Source: Sulfurimonadaceae bacterium
GTDB taxonomy: Bacteria; Campylobacterota; Campylobacteria; Campylobacterales; Sulfurimonadaceae
Assembly: GCA_016744905.1 (NCBI GenBank)
Contig: JADGDM010000020.1
Span: 1 to 41,893 of the forward strand
DNA length: 41,893 nucleotides
Direction: 5' to 3'
In this document: positions 5,965-22,744 of the stretch, piece by piece
How positions within the stretch are numbered: position 1 is the stretch's first letter
Layout: each line of letters opens with the position of its first letter
Program-made: the position numbers and the translations under genes
The notes under the pieces: model-generated
Told to the model about the DNA's origin: nothing
The model's database searches: none
The model's input: the letters and a program-made list of their open reading frames with translations, nothing else

Positions 5965-7239
5965 ATGAAAAAATTAGTATTATCTTTAGCGGCAACTCCG
6001 TTAATCCTAGGTGCGTTAAGCGTTCAAGCAAGTGCAGCAGAAGAGGGATTTAATATTCTTAGTGATGTTAAAGTAGCGGGTCAAATTCGTCCACGTTATG
6101 AAAATGCAAGTTCAAGTGCAGATGGTGATGTTGCAGCGCAAGCAGCAACAGCTAGAACAAACATTAACTTAAGTGCTAACCTGTTTCAAGTAGAAAACTT
6201 AACTGCAAATATTGGTGTAACATCTGTTAATTCACTTGGTCTTAACAATAATGCTTTCCAAGGTGATGATGGTAGTGATGCAACAAATAAAATTGTTGAT
6301 CCTCTAGCTGCACGTATCAATGTTGGTAACATGAACTATAAAATCAATAAAACAAACCTAATGTTAGGTCGTGCGGTTGTAAATCTTGACAACCAACGTT
6401 TTATTGGTTCAGTTGGTTGGAGACAAATGGAAGCATCTTTAGATGTTGCTGCTGTTTCTGACAACAGTGTTGAAAATCTTAAACTATTTGCAGCCTACGC
6501 AGTAAATGCAAATACGGTTAAAGGGACAGCCGTTGATACCAACTCAGCACTATTTAACGCAAACTATAAAGTTATGGATGAGTTAAGTGTAACAGGTTAT
6601 GCGTATATGATGAGTTCACTCTCTGATACTTATGGTTTAGCACTAACAGGTAAGGTTGGCTTAGGTGAAGGTATGAATTTAACATACCGCGCAGAGTATG
6701 CAATGCAAACAGAAGCGAGTTTAGAAACTAGAGATACAACCAATGCAACGTCTAATGTAAGTGGAAACTATGTTAATGTTGATGTAGGTGGTGTATTTGC
6801 TGGTGTTATTGCAGGACTTAACTATGAGATGCTAAGTGGAACTGATGGCGATGCAACAAATCCTACAGCTCAATTTAATCCAGCATTTGGTACAAATCAT
6901 AAATTTAATGGTTGGGCAGATGTGTTTTACGTGGGTAACGCTGGATACGCTGGTGGTCTTAATGATCTTAATGTACGTTTAGGTTATAAAGCTAAGGGTA
7001 TTGGTAAATTTTTAGTAATGTACCACATGTTCTCAGAAAATACTGCTACTGCTGGTTCAGCTGAAGCATACGGTAATGAACTAGATCTTCTTTATGCTAA
7101 TAAAGTTCCTGGTGTAAATGGTCTTTCCGGACTTATTAAATACGCAATGTATATGGATGACACATCTACAAACAAGGGTGTGAATAAAGATGTTTCTAAA
7201 GCTTGGTTAGGTTTAGATTATAAATTTAAAACTAACTAG
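5965..7239 (+). CDS. Outer-membrane porin (Campylobacterota major porin type), copy 1
   Basis: This 424-residue protein has a signal peptide (MKKLVLSLAATPLILGALSVQASA, shown here only in part as MKKLVLSLAA...QASA) and a mature part starting near AEEGFN. The rest shows alternating polar and hydrophobic strands, Gly/Asn/Thr-rich loops and a C-terminal WLGLDYKF strand ending, as in outer-membrane beta-barrels. ATG at 5959 is also in frame, but AAGGA touches it. The ATG at 5965 has proper spacing and is preferred. The next gene is a clear paralogue: both have GxIRPRYE/GELRPRYE near residue 40 and NLD(N)-(Q/E)RFIGS near the middle. An Opr-family diffusion porin is the likely role; substrate selectivity cannot be seen. 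Confidence 0.85.
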   Translation: MKKLVLSLAATPLILGALSVQASAAEEGFNILSDVKVAGQIRPRYENASSSADGDVAAQAATARTNINLSANLFQVENLTANIGVTSVNSLGLNNNAFQGDDGSDATNKIVDPLAARINVGNMNYKINKTNLMLGRAVVNLDNQRFIGSVGWRQMEASLDVAAVSDNSVENLKLFAAYAVNANTVKGTAVDTNSALFNANYKVMDELSVTGYAYMMSSLSDTYGLALTGKVGLGEGMNLTYRAEYAMQTEASLETRDTTNATSNVSGNYVNVDVGGVFAGVIAGLNYEMLSGTDGDATNPTAQFNPAFGTNHKFNGWADVFYVGNAGYAGGLNDLNVRLGYKAKGIGKFLVMYHMFSENTATAGSAEAYGNELDLLYANKVPGVNGLSGLIKYAMYMDDTSTNKGVNKDVSKAWLGLDYKFKTN

Positions 7240-13455: not shown

Positions 13456-14688
13456 ATGTTTGAAGAAATACAATTTGACAGAATAAAAAGACTACCAAAG
13501 TATGTTTTTGCAGAGGTAAATGATATTAAAATGGCAGAGCGTCGCGCTGGTCATGATGTTATCGATTTTTCTATGGGTAACCCTGATGGAGACACACCTG
13601 AACATATTCGTGAGAAACTGGTTGAATCAGCGCAAAAGACAAAAACGCACGGTTACTCAACGTCTAAAGGCATCCCAAAACTTCTTATGGCCATTAGTGA
13701 CTGGTACAAACGTCGTTATGATGTTGATCTCGATCCTTTGACTGAGACAGTAGCAACGATGGGAAGTAAAGAGGGCTATGCGCACTTGTGTTACGCCATT
13801 ACCAATCCGGGTGATGTAGCGGTTGTTCCTGACCCTACCTATCCAATTCACTCGTATGCTTTTATCTTAGCCGGTGGAAATGTTGTAAAGTTTGGTTTAG
13901 AGTTTGATGAAGATTATAAAATTGATGAAGATAAGTTTTTATCTGACTTAGCACGTGTTTTTAAAGAGAGTTCACCTCGTCCTAAATACGTTTTAGTAAA
14001 CTTCCCACATAACCCTACTACCGCAACCGTGACACAAGAATTTTATGTTCGTCTTGTCGAGATGGCAAAACGTGAACGTTTTTATATTATCTCTGATATT
14101 GCTTATGGAGATATCACATTTGATGGTTATGTAACCCCTTCTATCATGTCGGTTCCTGGTGCCAAAGATGTAGCAGTTGAGAGTTTTACACTCTCTAAAT
14201 CATACAATATGGCGGGTTGGCGTGTTGGATTTTTTGTCGGTAATGAAAAGCTTATTGGCGCGCTACAAAAGATTAAGTCATGGTTAGATTATGGAATGTT
14301 TACCCCTATTCAAGTTGCTGCTACAGTAGCCCTTAATGGTGATCAGCAGTGTGTAAAAGATATTACGGATAAGTATGACCATAGACAAGATGTGTTGATT
14401 GAAGCTTTTGATAGAGCAGGATGGAAAATTCGTCGTAATCAAGCATCTATGTTTGTTTGGGCAAAGATTCCTGAATGCGTAGCATATATGGGTTCTTTAG
14501 AGTTTTCTAAAAAACTTTTAACTCAAGCACAAGTTGCTGTAGCACCAGGTATTGGTTTTGGTGAGTATGGTGAAGGTTATGTGCGTATTGCACTCATTGA
14601 AAATGATAACCGTATTCGTCAAGCAGCACGTAATATTAAAGATTTTTTGAAAAAATACGGAAAAGAAGAGGGTGAAATCAATGCTTAG
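13456..14688 (+). CDS. alaC: AlaC-type pyridoxal-phosphate aminotransferase
   Basis: This is a class I/II aminotransferase closely matching E. coli AlaC (glutamate-pyruvate transaminase) along its length: RIKRLPKYVF, IDFSMGNPDG, THGYSTSKGIP, GSKEG, NFPHNPTTA, then SKSYNMAGWRVGF with the PLP lysine at 248, and PGIGFGEYG near the end. At 410 residues it is full length. It overlaps hom by eight bases, so it may serve the aspartate-family or alanine pathway. Related enzymes are often named LL-diaminopimelate aminotransferase. The closer resemblance here is to AlaC, but the substrate is not proved. Confidence 0.88.
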   Translation: MFEEIQFDRIKRLPKYVFAEVNDIKMAERRAGHDVIDFSMGNPDGDTPEHIREKLVESAQKTKTHGYSTSKGIPKLLMAISDWYKRRYDVDLDPLTETVATMGSKEGYAHLCYAITNPGDVAVVPDPTYPIHSYAFILAGGNVVKFGLEFDEDYKIDEDKFLSDLARVFKESSPRPKYVLVNFPHNPTTATVTQEFYVRLVEMAKRERFYIISDIAYGDITFDGYVTPSIMSVPGAKDVAVESFTLSKSYNMAGWRVGFFVGNEKLIGALQKIKSWLDYGMFTPIQVAATVALNGDQQCVKDITDKYDHRQDVLIEAFDRAGWKIRRNQASMFVWAKIPECVAYMGSLEFSKKLLTQAQVAVAPGIGFGEYGEGYVRIALIENDNRIRQAARNIKDFLKKYGKEEGEINA

Positions 14689-15940
14689 AGTTGGTGTAAT
14701 TGGGGTAGGAACAGTCGGAACTTCTGTTGTAAACATCTTAAAAGATAATGCAGACATTATCCGTGCGCGCGCTGGTGCGAAAATCGAAGTTGTTAGTGGT
14801 GTTGTTCATAACCTTAATAAAGACAGAGGCGTTGATATCAAACTCTCAAACGACCCTATGGATATTATCAATGATGATTCTATTGATGTGGTTGTTGAGT
14901 TGATGGGTGGAGTTGAAGAGCCTTTTAAAGTGGTTAAAGCTGCTTTAGAAAAAGGTAAAGCGGTTGTTACGGCGAATAAAGCACTACTGGCATACCACAG
15001 ATACGAACTTCAAGATATTGCTAAAGATATCGCTTTTGAATATGAAGCATCTGTAGCAGGTGGTATCCCAATTATCAACGCGCTACGCGAGGGACTTTCA
15101 GCAAATCATATCGAGTCTATTCAAGGTATCATGAATGGTACATGTAACTACATGATGACCAAGATGATGAACGAGGGTGTTGCTTATGAAGATATCTTAC
15201 AAGAGTCTCAAGACTTAGGTTATGCAGAAGCAGATCCGACCTTTGATGTGGGTGGTTTTGATGCGGCGCATAAACTTCTTATCTTGGCGAGTATTGCTTA
15301 TGGAATAGATGCAAAGCCTGAAGATATTTTGATTGAAGGTATTGATAAAGTTACTTTAGAAGATATCTCTTTTGCTAAAGAGTTTGGTTATACCATCAAA
15401 CTGCTTGGTATCGCAAAACGTGATGGAGATGAAGTTGAATTACGTGTTCACGCAGCTTTGGTTCCTGAAGATGAGATGATAGCAAAGATTGATGGAGTTA
15501 TGAATGCTATCAGTGTTATTGGCGATAAAGTTGGAGAGACACTTTATTATGGCCCGGGGGCTGGTGGTGACGCTACTGCTTCAGCGGTTGTTGCGAATAT
15601 CATTGACATAGCGCGCTCAGGTAAAAGTTCACCGATGTTAGGTTTTGATAGAAGTTTAGAAAATGGACTTAAGCTTAAAAATAGAGATGGTATCGTTTCT
15701 AAATATTATCTTCGTCTACAAGTAGCTGATGAAGCCGGTGTTTTAGCCAAAGTAACTTCTCTTTTTGGTGATCATAAAATCTCTATCGAGACAATGTTAC
15801 AAAGACCAACGGGTGAAAACGCTGCGAACTTACTTATCTCTACACATAGTGCGATAGAAAAAGATATTCAAAACCTTATGGTTGCTTTAGAGAAGTTAGA
15901 GTTTATCGCTTCTGCACCAGTGATGATAAGAATTGTTTAA
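14681..15940 (+). CDS. hom: Homoserine dehydrogenase
   Basis: This reduces aspartate semialdehyde to homoserine for threonine and methionine synthesis. The N-terminal Rossmann fold has GVIGVGTVG at residues 4-12 from the chosen start. VVTANKALLA, then EASVAGGIPII, and IQGIMNGTCNYM are the catalytic-domain signatures. The C-terminal ACT domain starts near LRLQVADEAGVLAKV and is likely the site of threonine feedback control, as in B. subtilis-type enzymes. An in-frame GTG at 14672 would add three residues, but GAGGG at 14668-14672 fits the ATG at 14681. It overlaps the end of alaC by eight bases. Confidence 0.95.
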   Translation: MLRVGVIGVGTVGTSVVNILKDNADIIRARAGAKIEVVSGVVHNLNKDRGVDIKLSNDPMDIINDDSIDVVVELMGGVEEPFKVVKAALEKGKAVVTANKALLAYHRYELQDIAKDIAFEYEASVAGGIPIINALREGLSANHIESIQGIMNGTCNYMMTKMMNEGVAYEDILQESQDLGYAEADPTFDVGGFDAAHKLLILASIAYGIDAKPEDILIEGIDKVTLEDISFAKEFGYTIKLLGIAKRDGDEVELRVHAALVPEDEMIAKIDGVMNAISVIGDKVGETLYYGPGAGGDATASAVVANIIDIARSGKSSPMLGFDRSLENGLKLKNRDGIVSKYYLRLQVADEAGVLAKVTSLFGDHKISIETMLQRPTGENAANLLISTHSAIEKDIQNLMVALEKLEFIASAPVMIRIV

Positions 15941-15950
15941 AAGATTATGA

Positions 15951-15956
15951 TATAAT
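15951..15956 (+). promoter_or_regulatory. -10 box for an intergenic small transcript
   Basis: An exact TATAAT in the context ATGATATAATTC, ten bases after the hom stop codon, would start transcription near 15963. The only things downstream on this strand are the leader/terminator at 15963-16054 and the micro-ORF at 16108. The site is therefore best explained as the promoter of an independent small RNA. Confidence 0.55.
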
Positions 15957-15962
15957 TCTTTG

Positions 15963-16054
15963 TCGGATTAACATGTAGCTTCGTTCTATTAATCACAGAA
16001 CATTTGGAGCGCAGATTAGAGGTTAGAACTTTTTGAGTTCTAACCTTTTTTTTT
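15963..16054 (+). ncRNA. Candidate small RNA or regulatory leader ending in an intrinsic terminator
   Basis: A transcript of about 90 bases is bounded by the TATAAT box and a very strong terminator (16020-16054). Internal structure: GTTCT at 15983-15987 can pair with AGAAC at 15997-16001. GTTCTA at 15983-15988 can instead pair with TAGAAC (16024-16029) in the terminator's left arm, an antiterminator-like alternative. Three short segments (15968-15975, 15978-15982, 16003-16009) are complementary, in collinear order, to the start codon, Shine-Dalgarno and anti-Shine-Dalgarno of the micro-ORF downstream. It matches none of tmRNA, 4.5S RNA, RNase P RNA or tRNA that I can see. No conserved open reading frame lies inside it. 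Confidence 0.5.
16020..16054 (+). terminator. Strong intrinsic terminator of the small transcript (and of hom read-through)
   Basis: AGGTTAGAACT and AGTTCTAACCT form a perfect 11-bp stem with the 5-base loop TTTTG, followed by an unbroken run of nine T (16046-16054). It is the clearest rho-independent terminator in the window. Confidence 0.9.
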
Positions 16055-16082
16055 GCCAATTTTTTGGCGGTTGTGAGTGGGT

Positions 16083-16102
16083 GGGAGCGACTCCAAAAGG
16101 AG
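16083..16102 (+). promoter_or_regulatory. Shine-Dalgarno-sequestering hairpin before the micro-ORF
   Basis: CTCC at 16091-16094 can pair with the Shine-Dalgarno GGAG at 16099-16102 around an AAAA loop. A second GGAG at 16084-16087 competes for the same CTCC across a three-base loop. The two states would close or open the ribosome site. The stems are only 4 bp, so the effect depends on the wider fold. Confidence 0.4.
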
Positions 16103-16107
16103 CAGAC

Positions 16108-16173
16108 GTGTTAACCCGTATAGTAGTGATTTTATTGATATTGTGGTGTTGGTTTCCAATGCCACTTTATTAA
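16108..16173 (+). CDS. Candidate 21-residue hydrophobic peptide (type I toxin-like)
   Basis: GTG at 16108 has a strong Shine-Dalgarno (AAAAGGAG, five-base spacing) and opens 21 codons ending in TAA. The peptide starts MLTRIVVILL and ends FPMPLY. It has one basic residue near the start, then a run of Ile, Val, Leu and Trp long enough to enter a membrane. Size and pattern recall type I toxins such as Ibs of E. coli or AapA of Helicobacter; this is a resemblance in design, not shown homology. No promoter is evident between 16054 and 16108, so it may depend on read-through from the upstream leader. Its last codons sit in a hairpin (16143-16165). A leader peptide or a chance ORF are the alternatives. 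Confidence 0.35.
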   Translation: MLTRIVVILLILWCWFPMPLY

Positions 16174-16200
16174 TCATTAGGGGCTGATTACCCCTAATGA
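16174..16200. terminator. Bidirectional hairpin between the micro-ORF and the FadL-family gene
   Basis: TCATTAGGGG and CCCCTAATGA form a 10-bp perfect stem with a 7-base loop, one base past the micro-ORF stop and 12 bases beyond the stop of the convergent FadL-family gene. Neither side has a long T-run. It probably ends transcription, or protects 3' ends, in both directions. Confidence 0.6.
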
Positions 16201-16211
16201 ATTGCTATTGT

Positions 16212-17345
16212 CTAAAAGTGGTAAGTATATTGAGCAGTGATTGATATTTGTGTATTACTTGCTTTATAAAGATTGTTTTTGGTTCTATCAAGACCGAGGT
16301 CAGTATCAAAGTAGGTTGATGTAACGGTACGATTTTGACTACCTGTTCCATAAACACCAGTAAGATCTACAGTATTATTTTCATTAATATCATAAACACC
16401 ACCAGCAGTTAAGTGGTATGCCACAACAGCAGGAAAAAGAACCAAGTTATTTGAAATTAGTTGATCATCGCCTTCTGAAGGGATAACATCTGTTCCATAA
16501 TTTGCTCCTAGACGGATACCAAAAAGATCATTTCTATACTCAGCACCAAATGCAAGTACATGTTGAGAATCCCATTGAAAGTCCTCAAACCCCGCAGCAC
16601 TACCATACATAAGATATTTATAATCTAATGCCACATTGATACTCTCTGTAAGTTCATAGTTTACACCAAGACCAAACATCCCTGGATTTGCCAAAGCTTC
16701 TGGATTGGCAAGACCATAATCACTTTCAATAGCTGTTTTATAGATTAAACCAAAAGTATACGCTTCATAATCATAAGCAAAACCAAGGTTCACACCAAAA
16801 TCAACTGAACTGCCATCTTGTAATCCAGTTGGACTTGGCATCTCTAAACTAGAGTATTGTAAAATTGGTGTGATACCAACGCTATATTTACCATACTTGT
16901 ATGAAAAAGGTGCCGCAAATTGTAAGACTGAAAGGGCATCTTGCATTCCTGCTGCATTGGTGACTGTCTCACCACTATAGTCAACACCCATGCCTGCCAT
17001 AGACATCATTGCTACACCAAAAGCCATGTCATCGTTGATTTTTTGAGCGTATGAAAGTGCTGGTAAAATACTCATTCCTGCATCACTATCAACTTTACCA
17101 CCGTTATCTGTATAAGAAACACTTGGAGAAAATAGTGTTAAGCCACCAGTTACTTCCATCTTCTCTTGCTTACTATATAAAGCAGGATTGTTTAGTGCAC
17201 TCTCTGCACCGAAGTGTGTGGCAATTCCAACCCCACCCATAGCGCGTGAAGCGGCACCAAAGCCGATAAGTTGAGTACCATTGGTTGCCAATAGTGAACT
17301 TGTAATGATTGATAATCCCAAAGAGACTGTAAGTAGTTTTTTCAT
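16212..17345 (-). CDS. Outer-membrane transport protein, OmpP1/FadL/TodX family
   Basis: A 377-residue beta-barrel with a signal peptide (MKKLLTVSLGLSIITSSLLA). The mature N-terminus NGTQLIGFGAASRAMGGVGIA is the FadL hatch signature, followed by ESALNNPALYS, also typical. Later segments alternate barrel strands, ending in an ITAQYTYHF strand with terminal Phe. FadL-family members let long-chain fatty acids or aromatic and other hydrophobic compounds cross the outer membrane; the substrate here is unknown. TGGAG precedes the ATG. It is divergent from the large lipoprotein gene at 17530 and converges on the micro-ORF region. Confidence 0.88.
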   Translation of the reverse strand: MKKLLTVSLGLSIITSSLLATNGTQLIGFGAASRAMGGVGIATHFGAESALNNPALYSKQEKMEVTGGLTLFSPSVSYTDNGGKVDSDAGMSILPALSYAQKINDDMAFGVAMMSMAGMGVDYSGETVTNAAGMQDALSVLQFAAPFSYKYGKYSVGITPILQYSSLEMPSPTGLQDGSSVDFGVNLGFAYDYEAYTFGLIYKTAIESDYGLANPEALANPGMFGLGVNYELTESINVALDYKYLMYGSAAGFEDFQWDSQHVLAFGAEYRNDLFGIRLGANYGTDVIPSEGDDQLISNNLVLFPAVVAYHLTAGGVYDINENNTVDLTGVYGTGSQNRTVTSTYFDTDLGLDRTKNNLYKASNTQISITAQYTYHF

Positions 17346-17529: not shown

Positions 17530-20500
17530 ATGAAAATGAAAAATAAATTAGTTTCACTTGCGGCCGCTACAGTAATCGTAGCAACTATGACAGGTTGTGA
17601 AAGTACAGCAACTAGCGACTCAGTTAGTAAGACAGGTGCAACTGCTACCCACATCAGTAACCCTAAAGGTTCAGTAACTGGTACAGTTCAAGATACAAAT
17701 GGTAATCCAATTGCTGGTGTTATGGTTTATTTAGCTGGTCAAACTGCTAAAACAGATGCGGGTGGTGTTTATAACTTTTCTAGTGTTCCTGTAACACAAA
17801 CTACAACTACGGGTGTAGCAAATGTTGGTCAAGCACTTTCTGTTACAATCGCTGCTCCAACTGGATATATTGGTGCTACGGTTACAGTAACTCCTGCGGC
17901 TCAAATTGACAATGCTGAAGCTGGTGCAGCTGCTGCTGGTGCAACAAATGCAGTTGAAACTTTCATTGATGGTTACGTTGCATCTGCTGGTGTTGCAGTT
18001 CTTCCTGCATTAAGCTCAACTGTAAATGGTGTGCTTCGTGATACAAATACTGGTGAACCTTTAGCTAACAAAGTGGTTAACTTAGAGTTTACTGCCGGTG
18101 GTTCTACTGCTGGAGCAGCTCAAGAACAAGTGAATAATGCAGCTGTTAATACTTCTTATGCTGTAGAGTTATATACTGTAACTACTGGAACAGATGGTTC
18201 ATTCTCAATGACTGGAATCCCAACTGATTCTACTTTTGCTCTTCTAGTACCTGGTTATACTACAGCAACGGCAGTTGTAACTGATGCAGAAGATGTTATC
18301 ACTTTAGGTAATGTAAATGCAACTGTAATCACTGCACTTGATGGTGTTAATCCATATATTACTAGAGTAAACAATACAATTACTACTGGTGCTCGTGCTA
18401 TTTTGGATGATAATACAAGAGACACTTTTGTAGTTAATTTTTCAGAAACACTTACTCCGGCAGCCTTACAATTAGCAGGAAACTCAATTCTTCTATATGC
18501 TGGTGATTCAACAACTACTCCAAGTTCAGTGGTTTCGATCCCTTTTACTGCAACTATTGATGCAGCAAGTAAAGCTATTACTATTACAACTTCTGCAACA
18601 TTAGCAGATGGAGATAATGTAGATATCTTTTTTCTAAATGCAGATGCTATTGATAGTTCAGCTAATCCACTTGGTGTCGCTGTTCCAGCTGGTGTGGTAG
18701 CAATTAACTATGCCGCTAATAATGGTAATTATACACAGGTAAATTTACAAATCTTTCAAGAAGCAAATATTAATGCAGCTTCTGTGACAGGTTTAGCACA
18801 AATGACAAGAGATGATAACTTAGGTACTACTGATGATGATGCAGCAGTTCAAGCTATATCAAGCTCTTTTAATGATGTATTAGACGAAGCAGTAACTACA
18901 GGTTTTCAACAACTAAATAGTGCTGATAACGATGCTGGCCCAACTAATGATGCGCAAGAAAGACTAAGTGCGCTAGTGGCTCAACTTAATGGAACAGCTG
19001 TTCAAACTAATGCTGCGCGTGTTACTTTTACTCCAGATACTACTAATCCAGCATTTGAATATTATGTACTAGTTACAGATGTTACCGGTACAATTCAAAG
19101 ATCTCCAGCAGCTATTAATGCTGTTGGAAATATTGCTACAACAAATGTATCAGTTGTAACTGACTTTGGTGGAGCACTTGGTACTGGTATCGCTCGTCTT
19201 ACTGTAAGCGATATCAATGCAGTTGAACTTTATATCTCTAATGTACAACCAACAGATACGGTAACTATTATTCCAACTGACTCTTTAGGTTATGCAGGAA
19301 CAACTTCAACAATTTCTTTAGTTGACAATGTAGCACCTACAACGATTTTACAAGACTCTTACTATGCTGCAGGAACATCTGGAGATAACGCTTCTGGAGC
19401 TGTAGTTCAGTACGGTAATGGTGGTGAACTTTCTGATGAAAATGGTGCAGTTCAAGTGGGTACTCCATACTTAGCAATCACCAATTCACTTTTAGATAAT
19501 GAAAATGCTGCAGGTGATAAAGTAACTACTGGAGAGGATCCAGATGAAACTTTAAAAACTGAGTTATTTGATTTAAGTATACTTAATGGAGCAACAGGAC
19601 TACCATTTATTGGTGCTACTGCTTATGATGCAACTGCATTTGCTGCTTTTAATGTACCTGCTAACCTTACAAGAACAATGGGTGTCGCATTTTCAGAAAA
19701 CATCAAACTTACTGGTACACCAACTTATAATGGTACAGGAAGTTTAATCAGTGGCTATGTAGAAAATAATGATGTTACTAAGCTTGATACACAAGCTGCA
19801 GCAAGTGTTAATGCTGACCTTGTTAACATGGATGTTTCAAATGTTATGACTTTAGGAAATATAGATCATTTAAAAGTGATTGACTATTCTAGTGCAATTA
19901 GTGATTTAGTAAATAATCCTGCAACAAATGCAAATGCTAAAGTAGTTGTAAAAGATGAAATGGCGCCTATGGTTACAGAGGCAAAATTTAATGGTGATAC
20001 AATCTCTATTACTTTTAATGAAGATGTTATCTTAGATGATGGTATGAAGATTGTTATTACAAGTGGTGCTAATTCAGATACCATTACTTATGCAGAAGCG
20101 GATACTCCAGCTACATGGACAGTTGCTGCTAATGTAATTACAATCCAAAAAGATGCATATAATTATAGTGTTTCTAATGTGATGAATGATTCAACATTAT
20201 GGACAAATGGTACTTATGTTGAAGCTGGTCTTTATGGTGATGCGAATACATCTCATGCACTACTTTCATTTAACGAGGTTCCAGATACATTAGAAAATAG
20301 TTGGGATACTTATAATACAAATACTGGAGCACGTTCAGTAACTGCACCTAAGTTTGCTGTAGTAAATACTGTAGTAAACCCATTAGGCGCAACACCAGTA
20401 ATTACTGGATTTAGTGCTGGAGATAATACAACAACAACTGCTCAAACAGTTGTATGGACATTTAATCAACCACTTCGTGTAACCAGTGCAGCTGATATTT

Positions 20501-20838
20501 TTAATGATGCTAATATTAATAATAATTCTGCAGAGGCGGATGGTTCAAGAGTTATTAGTGATGTAGTAAGTGGTGCTGGTTCAGTTGCTACTTATTTTGA
20601 AGCATTTATTGGTGCTGCACCAGATGCAATTACTGATACAGATACAGCAACACCAAAAGTGAATACAAAACTTACATTAAGTCCAAATGGAACAACAATG
20701 ACACTTGTATTTACAACAACAACGGATATTTCGAATACAACAAACGATGGTGTTAGAATGAAAGGTGGAAACACTTTAGTGAGTGAATATGATAAATCAA
20801 GACAATTAAATACATTACAGGCTAGTCCTACTCTATAG
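17530..20838 (+). CDS. Large lipoprotein with Ig-like repeats, probably surface exposed
   Basis: The 1102 residues begin with a lipoprotein signal peptide (lipobox MTGC, Cys23). Cys23 is the only cysteine in the protein. Two carboxypeptidase-regulatory-like beta domains follow: GTVQDTNGNPIAGVMVYLAG with TDAGGVYNF (about 48-105), and VNGVLRDTNTGEPLANKVV with TGTDGSFSMTGIP (about 165-265). Then come several bacterial Ig-like (SbsA/Big_5-like) units, each with a VxFSE or ITFNED motif, at about 275-395, 710-800 and 815-900. The composition is rich in Thr, Ala, Asn and Asp, acidic and poor in Lys. AAGGAG precedes the ATG. A structural or adhesive surface protein is likely, but no ligand can be named. 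Codon use is strongly biased, so it is probably highly expressed. Confidence 0.85.
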   Translation: MKMKNKLVSLAAATVIVATMTGCESTATSDSVSKTGATATHISNPKGSVTGTVQDTNGNPIAGVMVYLAGQTAKTDAGGVYNFSSVPVTQTTTTGVANVGQALSVTIAAPTGYIGATVTVTPAAQIDNAEAGAAAAGATNAVETFIDGYVASAGVAVLPALSSTVNGVLRDTNTGEPLANKVVNLEFTAGGSTAGAAQEQVNNAAVNTSYAVELYTVTTGTDGSFSMTGIPTDSTFALLVPGYTTATAVVTDAEDVITLGNVNATVITALDGVNPYITRVNNTITTGARAILDDNTRDTFVVNFSETLTPAALQLAGNSILLYAGDSTTTPSSVVSIPFTATIDAASKAITITTSATLADGDNVDIFFLNADAIDSSANPLGVAVPAGVVAINYAANNGNYTQVNLQIFQEANINAASVTGLAQMTRDDNLGTTDDDAAVQAISSSFNDVLDEAVTTGFQQLNSADNDAGPTNDAQERLSALVAQLNGTAVQTNAARVTFTPDTTNPAFEYYVLVTDVTGTIQRSPAAINAVGNIATTNVSVVTDFGGALGTGIARLTVSDINAVELYISNVQPTDTVTIIPTDSLGYAGTTSTISLVDNVAPTTILQDSYYAAGTSGDNASGAVVQYGNGGELSDENGAVQVGTPYLAITNSLLDNENAAGDKVTTGEDPDETLKTELFDLSILNGATGLPFIGATAYDATAFAAFNVPANLTRTMGVAFSENIKLTGTPTYNGTGSLISGYVENNDVTKLDTQAAASVNADLVNMDVSNVMTLGNIDHLKVIDYSSAISDLVNNPATNANAKVVVKDEMAPMVTEAKFNGDTISITFNEDVILDDGMKIVITSGANSDTITYAEADTPATWTVAANVITIQKDAYNYSVSNVMNDSTLWTNGTYVEAGLYGDANTSHALLSFNEVPDTLENSWDTYNTNTGARSVTAPKFAVVNTVVNPLGATPVITGFSAGDNTTTTAQTVVWTFNQPLRVTSAADIFNDANINNNSAEADGSRVISDVVSGAGSVATYFEAFIGAAPDAITDTDTATPKVNTKLTLSPNGTTMTLVFTTTTDISNTTNDGVRMKGGNTLVSEYDKSRQLNTLQASPTL

Positions 20839-20914: not shown

Positions 20915-22744
20915 ATGAATAAATGTTTTTATACTCTTCTTCTGTTCCTCCCATTTTTTACCGCATGTACGGATACCTCAAAACATGAGAGTTTTTCTAC
21001 AGCTTTAATTCAAAAGCTAGAGGTTACTGAAACTCCTTTTACAGTCAGCGCATCTACTCTACGTAGTTACAGCTCTTCTACACATATTTATGATTTTCCA
21101 ACAAATGCCGCAGTTTTATTGGCGTTTACACAAGATGTTAATGAGTCATCGCTTCTGCATGGAATCACCTTATATAAACCTATGAGTTATTACAACAGTT
21201 CTGAAAATACTTATACTACTTATCTTGATCCAGTCACTATCGAAGCTCCTCAAACGTATAAAGATCTGAAGAATGTACGTGTGAATAAGTTGGATTATTT
21301 TGAGGCAGAGACAGAGTACCTTTTGGTCGTGACAAGTGAGGTGATGAGTGCGGATGGTAAACATCTGGATCAAAACACCTCATTTAGTTTTACAACAGCA
21401 CTTCATGCCGACCTAACACCTCCTTCAATAAAATCAATGAGTCCATTAGATGGTTCTGGGATGAGAGTAGATGGGAGTGTGACGATAACTTTTGATGAAA
21501 TTATCTATCCTTCTGGTGATTTGATTTTAGAAAGTATGGCAGGGACACCGATTACTTCGTCTACGGAGTATGGCAACAGATCGATAACAATTACTCCGGA
21601 TGTGTCACTGAATCCAAATGGGCAATTCAGGGCTCGCTTAATCTCAGACATCACTGACTTAAGTGGTAATGTCCTCACGTATAATGCATTAAGTGAGTTT
21701 AATACAACATTCCTAGCCGATTTTGCTTTGAGTTCTGGAAATTGGGTTCCTACTGATGTACTGGATTTAAATACAGGGCCTTACTCTAAGTTAGAGACTT
21801 TTGAACTTGATGATAGAGACCTCTTTTATAATGCCACTGAGTTAAATAGTAGCAGCAATATTTTCAAAATAGGTCTTAATATCCAGAACTATTCTCCTGG
21901 AAATGGGTTAGGATTCCTAGGATCATTTGTTCCTTTTAAAACAGTAAGTAATTTTGACTATAACAGCTCAGAACATCGCGATATCGTAGAAGGTTCTGTT
22001 ATCACTAAAATAGTAGTAGCATCAGACATTCTCTATGTAGCAACAAAGACACAAGGTCTCTACTTGGTTGATATATCTGATAAAAATAACTCTTATTTGA
22101 TGCAAAACGTGCTTGTCGATGATTTGATAATGGATATGGCGTATGACTCTAATAATAGTGTACTGTATGTTGCAACAGCCAATAATGGTGTAATGGAGTA
22201 CAATGTAGTTAATGCAGGTACACTGACTTATAAACAGACGGTGGCACTCTCGCCCGCTTACGGTTTGGCTGTCTTAGGAAACCGTATTTATGTTGCGATG
22301 GGTGAAAAGGGTTTGGCGTATTATGAGGGTTCTACTGTTCTTCAAAGTGGGATTGATACTTATGCTTTTGCACATAAAATTATTGTTTATAATGATGATC
22401 AGACAAGTCAACTTATGGTCGCAGATGCACAAGCCGGAACAATAGAATATGATGTAGACTTGAATAGAATTTTTTCTAAAAAATCACTCTATTATGCAAG
22501 TAGTTTATTAAGATTTGATGGGCCTAATGGTGAAATGATAGCCATTGTTGATAATGCTAAAGGGGTGCGGATATATGATGGATATGGAGGAGATGCACAG
22601 ATACAACTCTCTAGTAGCAATAAAGTAGCGATTGATGTGAAGCATCAAGGCCTTATTAGTGATCCAGTGTACCCAATAGAAGAAACTTTTATTTTTGTTT
22701 TAAACGAAACAAATAATATTGAAATAATTAAAAATGCTAATTAG
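20915..22744 (+). CDS. Lipoprotein with Ig-like and beta-propeller-like regions
   Basis: The 609 residues start with a lipoprotein signal (lipobox FTAC, Cys18). Two Ig-like units follow (about 45-155 and 165-265). The second has PPSIKSMSPLDGSG, VTITFDE and LTPDVSLNPN-type features of Big_5 domains. The rest (about 300-600) has repeated LYVATKTQGLYLVDISD, LYVATANNGVMEYNV and IYVAMGEKGLAYYEG units, as in LVIVD or NHL-like beta propellers. AAGGTGA precedes the ATG. It is first in a likely operon running to 30582. The shared Ig-like domains with the 17530 protein suggest joint function at the cell surface; the ligand is unknown. Confidence 0.8.
   Translation: MNKCFYTLLLFLPFFTACTDTSKHESFSTALIQKLEVTETPFTVSASTLRSYSSSTHIYDFPTNAAVLLAFTQDVNESSLLHGITLYKPMSYYNSSENTYTTYLDPVTIEAPQTYKDLKNVRVNKLDYFEAETEYLLVVTSEVMSADGKHLDQNTSFSFTTALHADLTPPSIKSMSPLDGSGMRVDGSVTITFDEIIYPSGDLILESMAGTPITSSTEYGNRSITITPDVSLNPNGQFRARLISDITDLSGNVLTYNALSEFNTTFLADFALSSGNWVPTDVLDLNTGPYSKLETFELDDRDLFYNATELNSSSNIFKIGLNIQNYSPGNGLGFLGSFVPFKTVSNFDYNSSEHRDIVEGSVITKIVVASDILYVATKTQGLYLVDISDKNNSYLMQNVLVDDLIMDMAYDSNNSVLYVATANNGVMEYNVVNAGTLTYKQTVALSPAYGLAVLGNRIYVAMGEKGLAYYEGSTVLQSGIDTYAFAHKIIVYNDDQTSQLMVADAQAGTIEYDVDLNRIFSKKSLYYASSLLRFDGPNGEMIAIVDNAKGVRIYDGYGGDAQIQLSSSNKVAIDVKHQGLISDPVYPIEETFIFVLNETNNIEIIKNAN

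Follow-up and report, generated by a model that had tools for sequence, protein, structure and literature searches.

A candidate riboregulated peptide unit of Campylobacterales with an antisense leader and a hydrophobic peptide under one promoter

Between hom (14672-15940, forward strand) and a FadL-family gene (16212-17345, reverse strand; Pfam Toluene_X) of a Sulfurimonadaceae bacterium lies an intergenic unit, at 15948-16211, that raises a simple question: does an RNA leader silence the small hydrophobic peptide encoded directly behind it, and, if so, what kind of system is this? The earlier note on this DNA had proposed a riboregulator resembling type I toxin-antitoxin systems, in which the upstream RNA acts on the peptide mRNA in trans, or in cis within a read-through transcript. 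We analyzed the unit in the window, i.e., the whole stretch of 41,893 nucleotides, and in its relatives. The riboregulator part of the proposal is strongly supported, as the open reading frame (ORF) is maintained and the pairing segments covary; toxicity, RNA production, and trans action are inferred. Conservation and covariation across dozens of loci also exclude that the first observation arose by chance. At a probability of roughly 0.7, we read the unit as a toxin-antitoxin module that would join an antisense mechanism, as in type I systems, to a single-promoter, same-strand layout, as in type III. The finding is larger than the earlier note had thought, namely an order-wide family that includes elements on conjugative plasmids of Campylobacter.

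Architecture of the unit and folding of its RNA

A single promoter opens the unit; a terminator-bearing leader RNA, a Shine-Dalgarno (SD) sequence, and a 21-codon hydrophobic ORF follow in that order, and all the features listed in the earlier note were found where it had placed them. The promoter element (TGATATAAT, 15948-15956), predicted to serve the whole unit, contains the exact TATAAT box already reported (15951-15956) and, in addition, the TG of an extended -10 (15948-15949). Of the 59 non-redundant members, 58 have a -10 box ahead of the leader, and 54 have the extended TGN. The predicted leader, or putative antitoxin RNA (15963-16054, ~92 nt, start inferred), rests on the sequence, a terminator scan, and the fold of 15957-16055 (z = -4.2). 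It comprises segment A (15964-15982), antisense to the SD and start codon; hairpin B (15983-16001), whose loop (ATTAATCAC, 15988-15996) complements the loop of a hairpin at the 3' end of the unit; segment C (16003-16012), the partner of C' upstream of the SD; and an intrinsic terminator. For the last, claimed at 16020-16054, the scan returned a stem with T9 at 16018-16054. C followed by nine T is found in 57/59 members; across the 59, the T-tract lies 51-64 nt before the start codon and 81-97 nt after the -10 box. The length of this tract (window 16046 onward) is fixed at nine in the 57 members despite the ease with which homopolymers mutate.

The region between terminator and SD starts with a small GCCAA/TTGGC hairpin (16055-16068), kept in the window's family and missing in some distant members, and continues with a G-rich block (GAGTGGGTGGGAG, 16075-16087) that is near-invariant in a 45-sequence alignment. 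Across members, the block downstream of C-T9 (GGGTGGGAG; tract and block together span window 16046-16087) is likewise near-invariant, and in consensus folding the U-tract pairs with the G-rich block by G-U pairs. In four members (L051, L052, L098, and L106), a GCCAATTTTTT-like stretch comes after the T9 of an upstream terminator and leads directly into the element's -10 box, so that terminator and promoter share T-tracts.

Segment C' (16087-16097) precedes and overlaps the SD (AAAAGGAG, 16095-16102), of which positions -10 to -7 fall inside the antisense duplex in 75-90% of members. Segment A' (16099-16118), the target of A, takes in the SD, the start codon, and the first codons, as judged from duplex coverage and the window fold. 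The hydrophobic ORF (MLTRIVVILLILWCWFPMPLY, 16108-16173) starts with GTG, exactly as had been described, and homologous ORFs occupy the equivalent place in other members. It contains segment D (16120-16131) and an internal hairpin (16143-16165) that 0.5% of synonymous shuffles match in stability in the window (family mean z = -1.6). The hairpin noted 3' of the ORF was located at 16175-16199 by the terminator scan; its loop CTGATTA (16184-16190) would kiss the leader loop, and segment D', the partner of D, follows at 16200-16211. The 3' hairpin may, by inference, double as a transcription terminator for the FadL-family gene on the opposite strand.

For the read-through RNA (15963-16215), the folding energy is -98.9 kcal/mol (z = -8.8), with 0/200 dinucleotide shuffles as good. 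Three leader/ORF-start pairings had been proposed, and exactly those dominate the fold, with partition-function probabilities of 0.91-1.0 for 15968-15975/16107-16114, 0.94-0.97 for 15978-15982/16099-16103, and 0.6-0.85 for 16003-16009/16091-16097. The masking of the SD by CTCC (16091-16094) suggested earlier appears in the fold of the leaderless mRNA. Cofolding of that mRNA with the short RNA yields a gain of 15 kcal/mol in the window and 13 on average in members. Several contacts had escaped the first reading: the pairings 15964-15966/16116-16118 and 16010-16012/16087-16089, the kissing complementarity between the leader loop and the 3'-hairpin loop, and the helix between ORF and 3' UTR (D/D').

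As a side observation on the neighborhood, the FadL-family gene is followed on the forward strand by a gene for a 1102-aa protein (17530-20838), for which NCBIfam gave no matches and CarboxypepD_reg matched below threshold only, and then by one whose product has a Big_5 domain plus an LVIVD repeat below threshold (20915-22744); the two products form a surface-protein-like pair.

Conservation and covariation across Campylobacterales

A plain DNA search of 60 relatives returned three loci that have the complete architecture and lie among different genes, and covariance models were built because DNA similarity alone yielded only these; a first strict pattern matched two loci only, and pattern searching added a fifth member. 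At E <= 0.1, model R1 detected the unit in 79 genomes out of the 228 from the window's family, with up to five copies per genome, in unrelated gene neighborhoods; the named matches are Sulfurimonas, Sulfuricurvum, and related metagenome-assembled genomes (MAGs). These E-values are rough, and the loci come mostly from MAGs. From 91 extracted elements, a short hydrophobic ORF was called at the expected place in 81, although at least two of these calls (L070 and L103) were not credible and were excluded later; the 59 non-redundant elements served for the pairing, promoter, and peptide tests. In a collection of 84,980 species, 57 of 70 strict-pattern matches had both ORF and pairing, while six in clearly unrelated or unplaced genomes had neither. 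Members also occur in several further Campylobacterales families, among them the Arcobacteraceae, identified via an unannotated copy on the Aliarcobacter cibarius plasmid pACIB.

Some matches were discarded. R1 matches in some genomes of one family (L223, L225, and L227 of f14) are coding sequence, and the R2 count of 106/399 genomes is an over-count, since R2 matches confined to model positions 4-44 are ordinary terminators. The window genome has one clear copy only, its second R2 match (L269) not being a member. Three extra copies elsewhere (L115, L119, and L044) are decayed, with leader and terminator remaining and the ORF lost. No Rfam family reached its gathering threshold on the unit; the best weak match, sbrA (25.4 of 45 bits), is essentially the terminator hairpin, and permissive thresholds gave terminator-like chance matches only.

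Pairing between the leader 5' end and the initiation region is specific to each element. Over the 59 elements, the cognate duplex averages -21.4 kcal/mol versus -10.2 for non-cognate combinations (z = -25; 0/10,000 permutations), and the cognate partner is the best of 59 in 44 cases. The duplex has a mean of 23.5 bp, covering position -9 in 90% of members and the start codon in 92-98%. Within single genomes, most paralogues are orthogonal to one another (-23.6 versus -14.2), some similar copies being exceptions. The C/C' duplex gives z = -7.5, where two control combinations stay at z ~0, and D covaries with D' at z = -13.5. The loops of leader hairpin and 3' hairpin share a mean Watson-Crick run of 5.5 versus 3.5 (z = 13), realized through varying pairs (TGATTA/TAATCA, TAACTA/TAGTTA, TTACTA/TAGTAA, TGATGA/TCATCA, TGGTA/TACCA, and TGGC/GCCA), of which the window has a reversed order relative to the other members; this loop-only test was decisive, whereas the plain duplex energy of the whole B region against the tail was weak (z = -2.4). 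The terminator stem covaries as well, all nine of its pairs having changed on both sides somewhere in the 45-sequence alignment. The compensatory changes whose absence would have refuted the proposal are thus present in every pairing segment.

Equally, no decay of the reading frame was seen in the 59 loci, which keep ORFs of 18-21 codons (starting with TTG in 39, ATG in 14, and GTG in 6) for peptides of 18-21 aa with Kyte-Doolittle means mostly of 1.4-2.6. The main-group consensus is M..K[IL]IVVFL[VI]LMVFAPALH, and the window peptide belongs to a ..WFWFPTPLY-like subgroup. The ratio pN/pS falls from 0.70 in codons 2-6, which double as the antisense target, to 0.40 in codons 7-12 and 0.31 in codons 13-20; if anything, these values are too high because synonymous sites are near saturation. 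Judged from these substitution patterns, the peptide is under purifying selection. Tested members had no match above cut-off in Pfam or NCBIfam, where peptides this short score poorly and Ibs itself is too short to be scanned.

The same RNA chassis holds a second, unrelated peptide type of 25-31 aa that ends in ..LFREEIR.. (elements L261-L268 and L282-L284, ..VTLFREEIR..). It is multi-copy in Helicobacteraceae-like genomes and also occurs on Campylobacter plasmids from C. jejuni, C. coli, and C. fetus, 21 in number, of which 19 are typed as conjugative. Where C. jejuni and C. coli plasmids were examined, the element sits between a trbF/virB8-type gene and trbL. Across 14 elements of this type, the antisense duplex is again cognate-specific (z = -8.1), and the loop contact is weak (z = 3.0). 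A weak Pfam match of these peptides to Flp1_like (E 0.03, below cut-off) was judged to be chance. In one further member (L275, G356:C122:2900-3900), the peptide is different again (MLHIDIHTLGYLAIALVYIIFAIVK), and the duplex of leader and initiation region reaches -39.9 kcal/mol.

Proposed mechanism and its alternatives

Computation establishes four things: the pairings with their covariation, the conserved ORF, the one promoter, and the conserved terminator. On the sequence signals, the simplest reading of transcription is that one promoter serves the unit, that transcripts terminate at T9, and that the ORF is reached by read-through. A promoter for the toxin inside the unit was rejected, because -10 boxes between T-tract and SD occur in 1/59 members, below the 9% found in shuffles; an opposite-strand promoter for an antitoxin was rejected too, -10 boxes within and after the ORF on that strand being at shuffle level in the 59 elements. 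In the best reading, the attenuated leader of the toxin transcript is itself the antitoxin, with its action in trans inferred. RNA polymerase would start at the extended -10 and mostly halt at T9, releasing a short RNA of ~90 nt, and would occasionally read through into a long RNA that includes the ORF; the ratio of the two outcomes is inferred. Each read-through RNA would hold its own inhibitor, in that A-A' covers the SD and start codon, C-C' forms before the SD, and the leader loop kisses the 3'-hairpin loop. A-A' and C-C' are predicted to nest around hairpin B and the terminator, locking the SD and start codon in cis, and it is by these contacts that the primary transcript is proposed to be translationally inert. 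Were the leader cut off or unfolded, the freed mRNA could be silenced in trans by an excess of the short RNA through the same contacts, both processing and trans action being inferred. Once the short RNA is exhausted, through loss of the locus, of the plasmid, or of promoter activity, the peptide would be made and insert into the membrane, its toxicity again an inference.

The alternative that survives best is a riboregulator acting in cis only, with the leader as attenuator or translational lock of a small membrane peptide, toxic or not, and the terminated RNA as a by-product without trans action. Cis pairing alone could satisfy every contact, since one molecule can form all helices and the start codon of the long RNA is paired with the leader at P > 0.5 in 52/59 members and at P ~1 in the window; the letters of the DNA cannot separate cis from trans. 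Moreover, should the leader be present on every long RNA, repression in trans would require processing, of which the analysis gives no evidence. We still hold this alternative to be unlikely, because the strong T9 terminator of nearly all members would yield a free RNA with every contact, because contacts at the initiation region and also at the 3' end are the geometry of a known trans-acting antisense antitoxin, RNA II of pAD1 (PMC4147584), and because no conserved core resembling a ligand-binding one was seen.

Another possibility, which we rate as rather improbable, concerns the product: rather than a toxin, the peptide might be a regulatory small membrane protein whose synthesis is tightly controlled by RNA. 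It would fit the single clear copy in the window genome and its place next to housekeeping genes. The peptide, however, is in the style of Ibs-like membrane peptides, with variable N-terminal codons and a conserved hydrophobic core, and the scattered multi-copy occurrence, plasmid carriage, and exchangeable peptide types are typical of addiction modules. That the unit is two independent genes, one for a leader sRNA and one for the peptide, the latter served by a separate promoter located between T-tract and SD so that antitoxin and toxin are controlled separately, is very improbable: the T-tracts at 16046-16054 and 16060-16065 resemble T-rich stretches upstream of this group's -10 boxes, and some upstream gene terminators show the same T9GCCAATTTTTT followed by TATAAT, but the -10-like boxes are as scarce as described, and some distant members lack the T6 and GCC hairpin while retaining the G-rich block.

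Returning to the toxin-antitoxin reading, we think the chances about even that the unit represents a new class, in which the antitoxin would be an early-terminated leader from the very transcript that encodes the toxin, a single promoter and a single terminator would set the ratio, and the same antisense RNA would act on read-through transcripts in cis and on processed mRNA in trans, all on a chassis with exchangeable peptides spread across Campylobacterales, conjugative Campylobacter plasmids included.

Relation to known systems

In the type III system ToxIN, a promoter is followed by an antitoxin RNA, a Rho-independent terminator, and a toxin reached by read-through, and ~90% of toxIN transcripts terminate (PMC4147584). 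The unit meets this order on one strand. It differs in that its leader has no tandem repeats, its product is a hydrophobic peptide of ~20 aa and not an RNase, and its RNA is antisense to the mRNA, whereas the ToxIN RNA binds protein. Two marks of type I, a short hydrophobic peptide and an RNA complementary to the initiation site of its mRNA, are present, toxicity of the peptide and repression in trans being inferences; the separate opposite, convergent, or divergent antitoxin promoter usual in type I is lacking, with one promoter on the same strand instead. The par locus of pAD1 (RNA I/RNA II, Fst) is similar in having a short hydrophobic peptide that is repressed through pairing of repeats located at the initiation region, and the kissing loops of the unit, together with its initiation-region pairing, resemble RNA I/II. 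In par, the terminator loop is involved. The par RNAs, however, are convergent and share the terminator, unlike the tandem order of the unit under one promoter.

Ibs peptides of the E. coli type I system Ibs/Sib are hydrophobic, 19-21 aa long, and present in several copies per genome, with an antitoxin that spans their ribosome site and start codon (PMC4147584, PMC8309996). The unit resembles them in all these respects, but Sib is made from the opposite strand across the whole ibs gene, whereas the putative antitoxin of the unit lies upstream on the same strand, where it repeats the initiation region imperfectly and in inverted orientation. AapA/IsoA of Helicobacter pylori, from the same bacterial order, has a full-length toxin mRNA that folds into an inert form and needs processing (PMC8322730). 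The unit shares this in its predicted inert full-length mRNA; in contrast, IsoA is a cis-antisense RNA and AapA1 has 30 aa, while the unit has no opposite-strand promoter signal. In TisB/IstR, ShoB/OhsC, ZorO/OrzO, and DinQ/AgrB, the antitoxin gene also adjoins the toxin gene and does not oppose it, with complementarity outside an overlap, but the genes are divergent, have separate promoters, and pair in the long toxin 5' UTR, not at the SD or start (PMC4147584). AbiF/RCd22, an upstream-RNA system (PMC12373285), was rejected as the same system because it acts by RNA-protein binding, like type III. In three reviews (PMC4147584, PMC8309996, and PMC8322730), we found no type I system with a same-strand antitoxin under the toxin's only promoter. 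Our literature search, which lacks most subscription journals, turned up no account of a same-strand type I arrangement from this group and no description of a Campylobacter CjpT/CjrA system.

Dozens of relatives and Campylobacter plasmids preserve the pairing while its letters differ, so that the family looks like an overlooked one of toxin-antitoxin modules. If true, it extends, unannotated, across an order with Arcobacteraceae, Helicobacteraceae-like genomes, and Campylobacter, and its layout joins a type I mechanism to a type III gene order. It makes testable whether a toxin mRNA can be born with its antitoxin attached, the terminator alone setting the antitoxin:toxin ratio. Gene callers miss the unit owing to its short ORF, and no gene is annotated over the matches on the Aliarcobacter plasmid and most of the listed Campylobacter plasmids. 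On the latter, where the unit lies inside a conjugation operon, it may, by inference, function in plasmid maintenance. One complete member (L210; IMGVR_UViG_3300027373_000061, near 6997-7034) lies on a contig filed as viral, which may be a mis-binned Sulfurimonas-like fragment.
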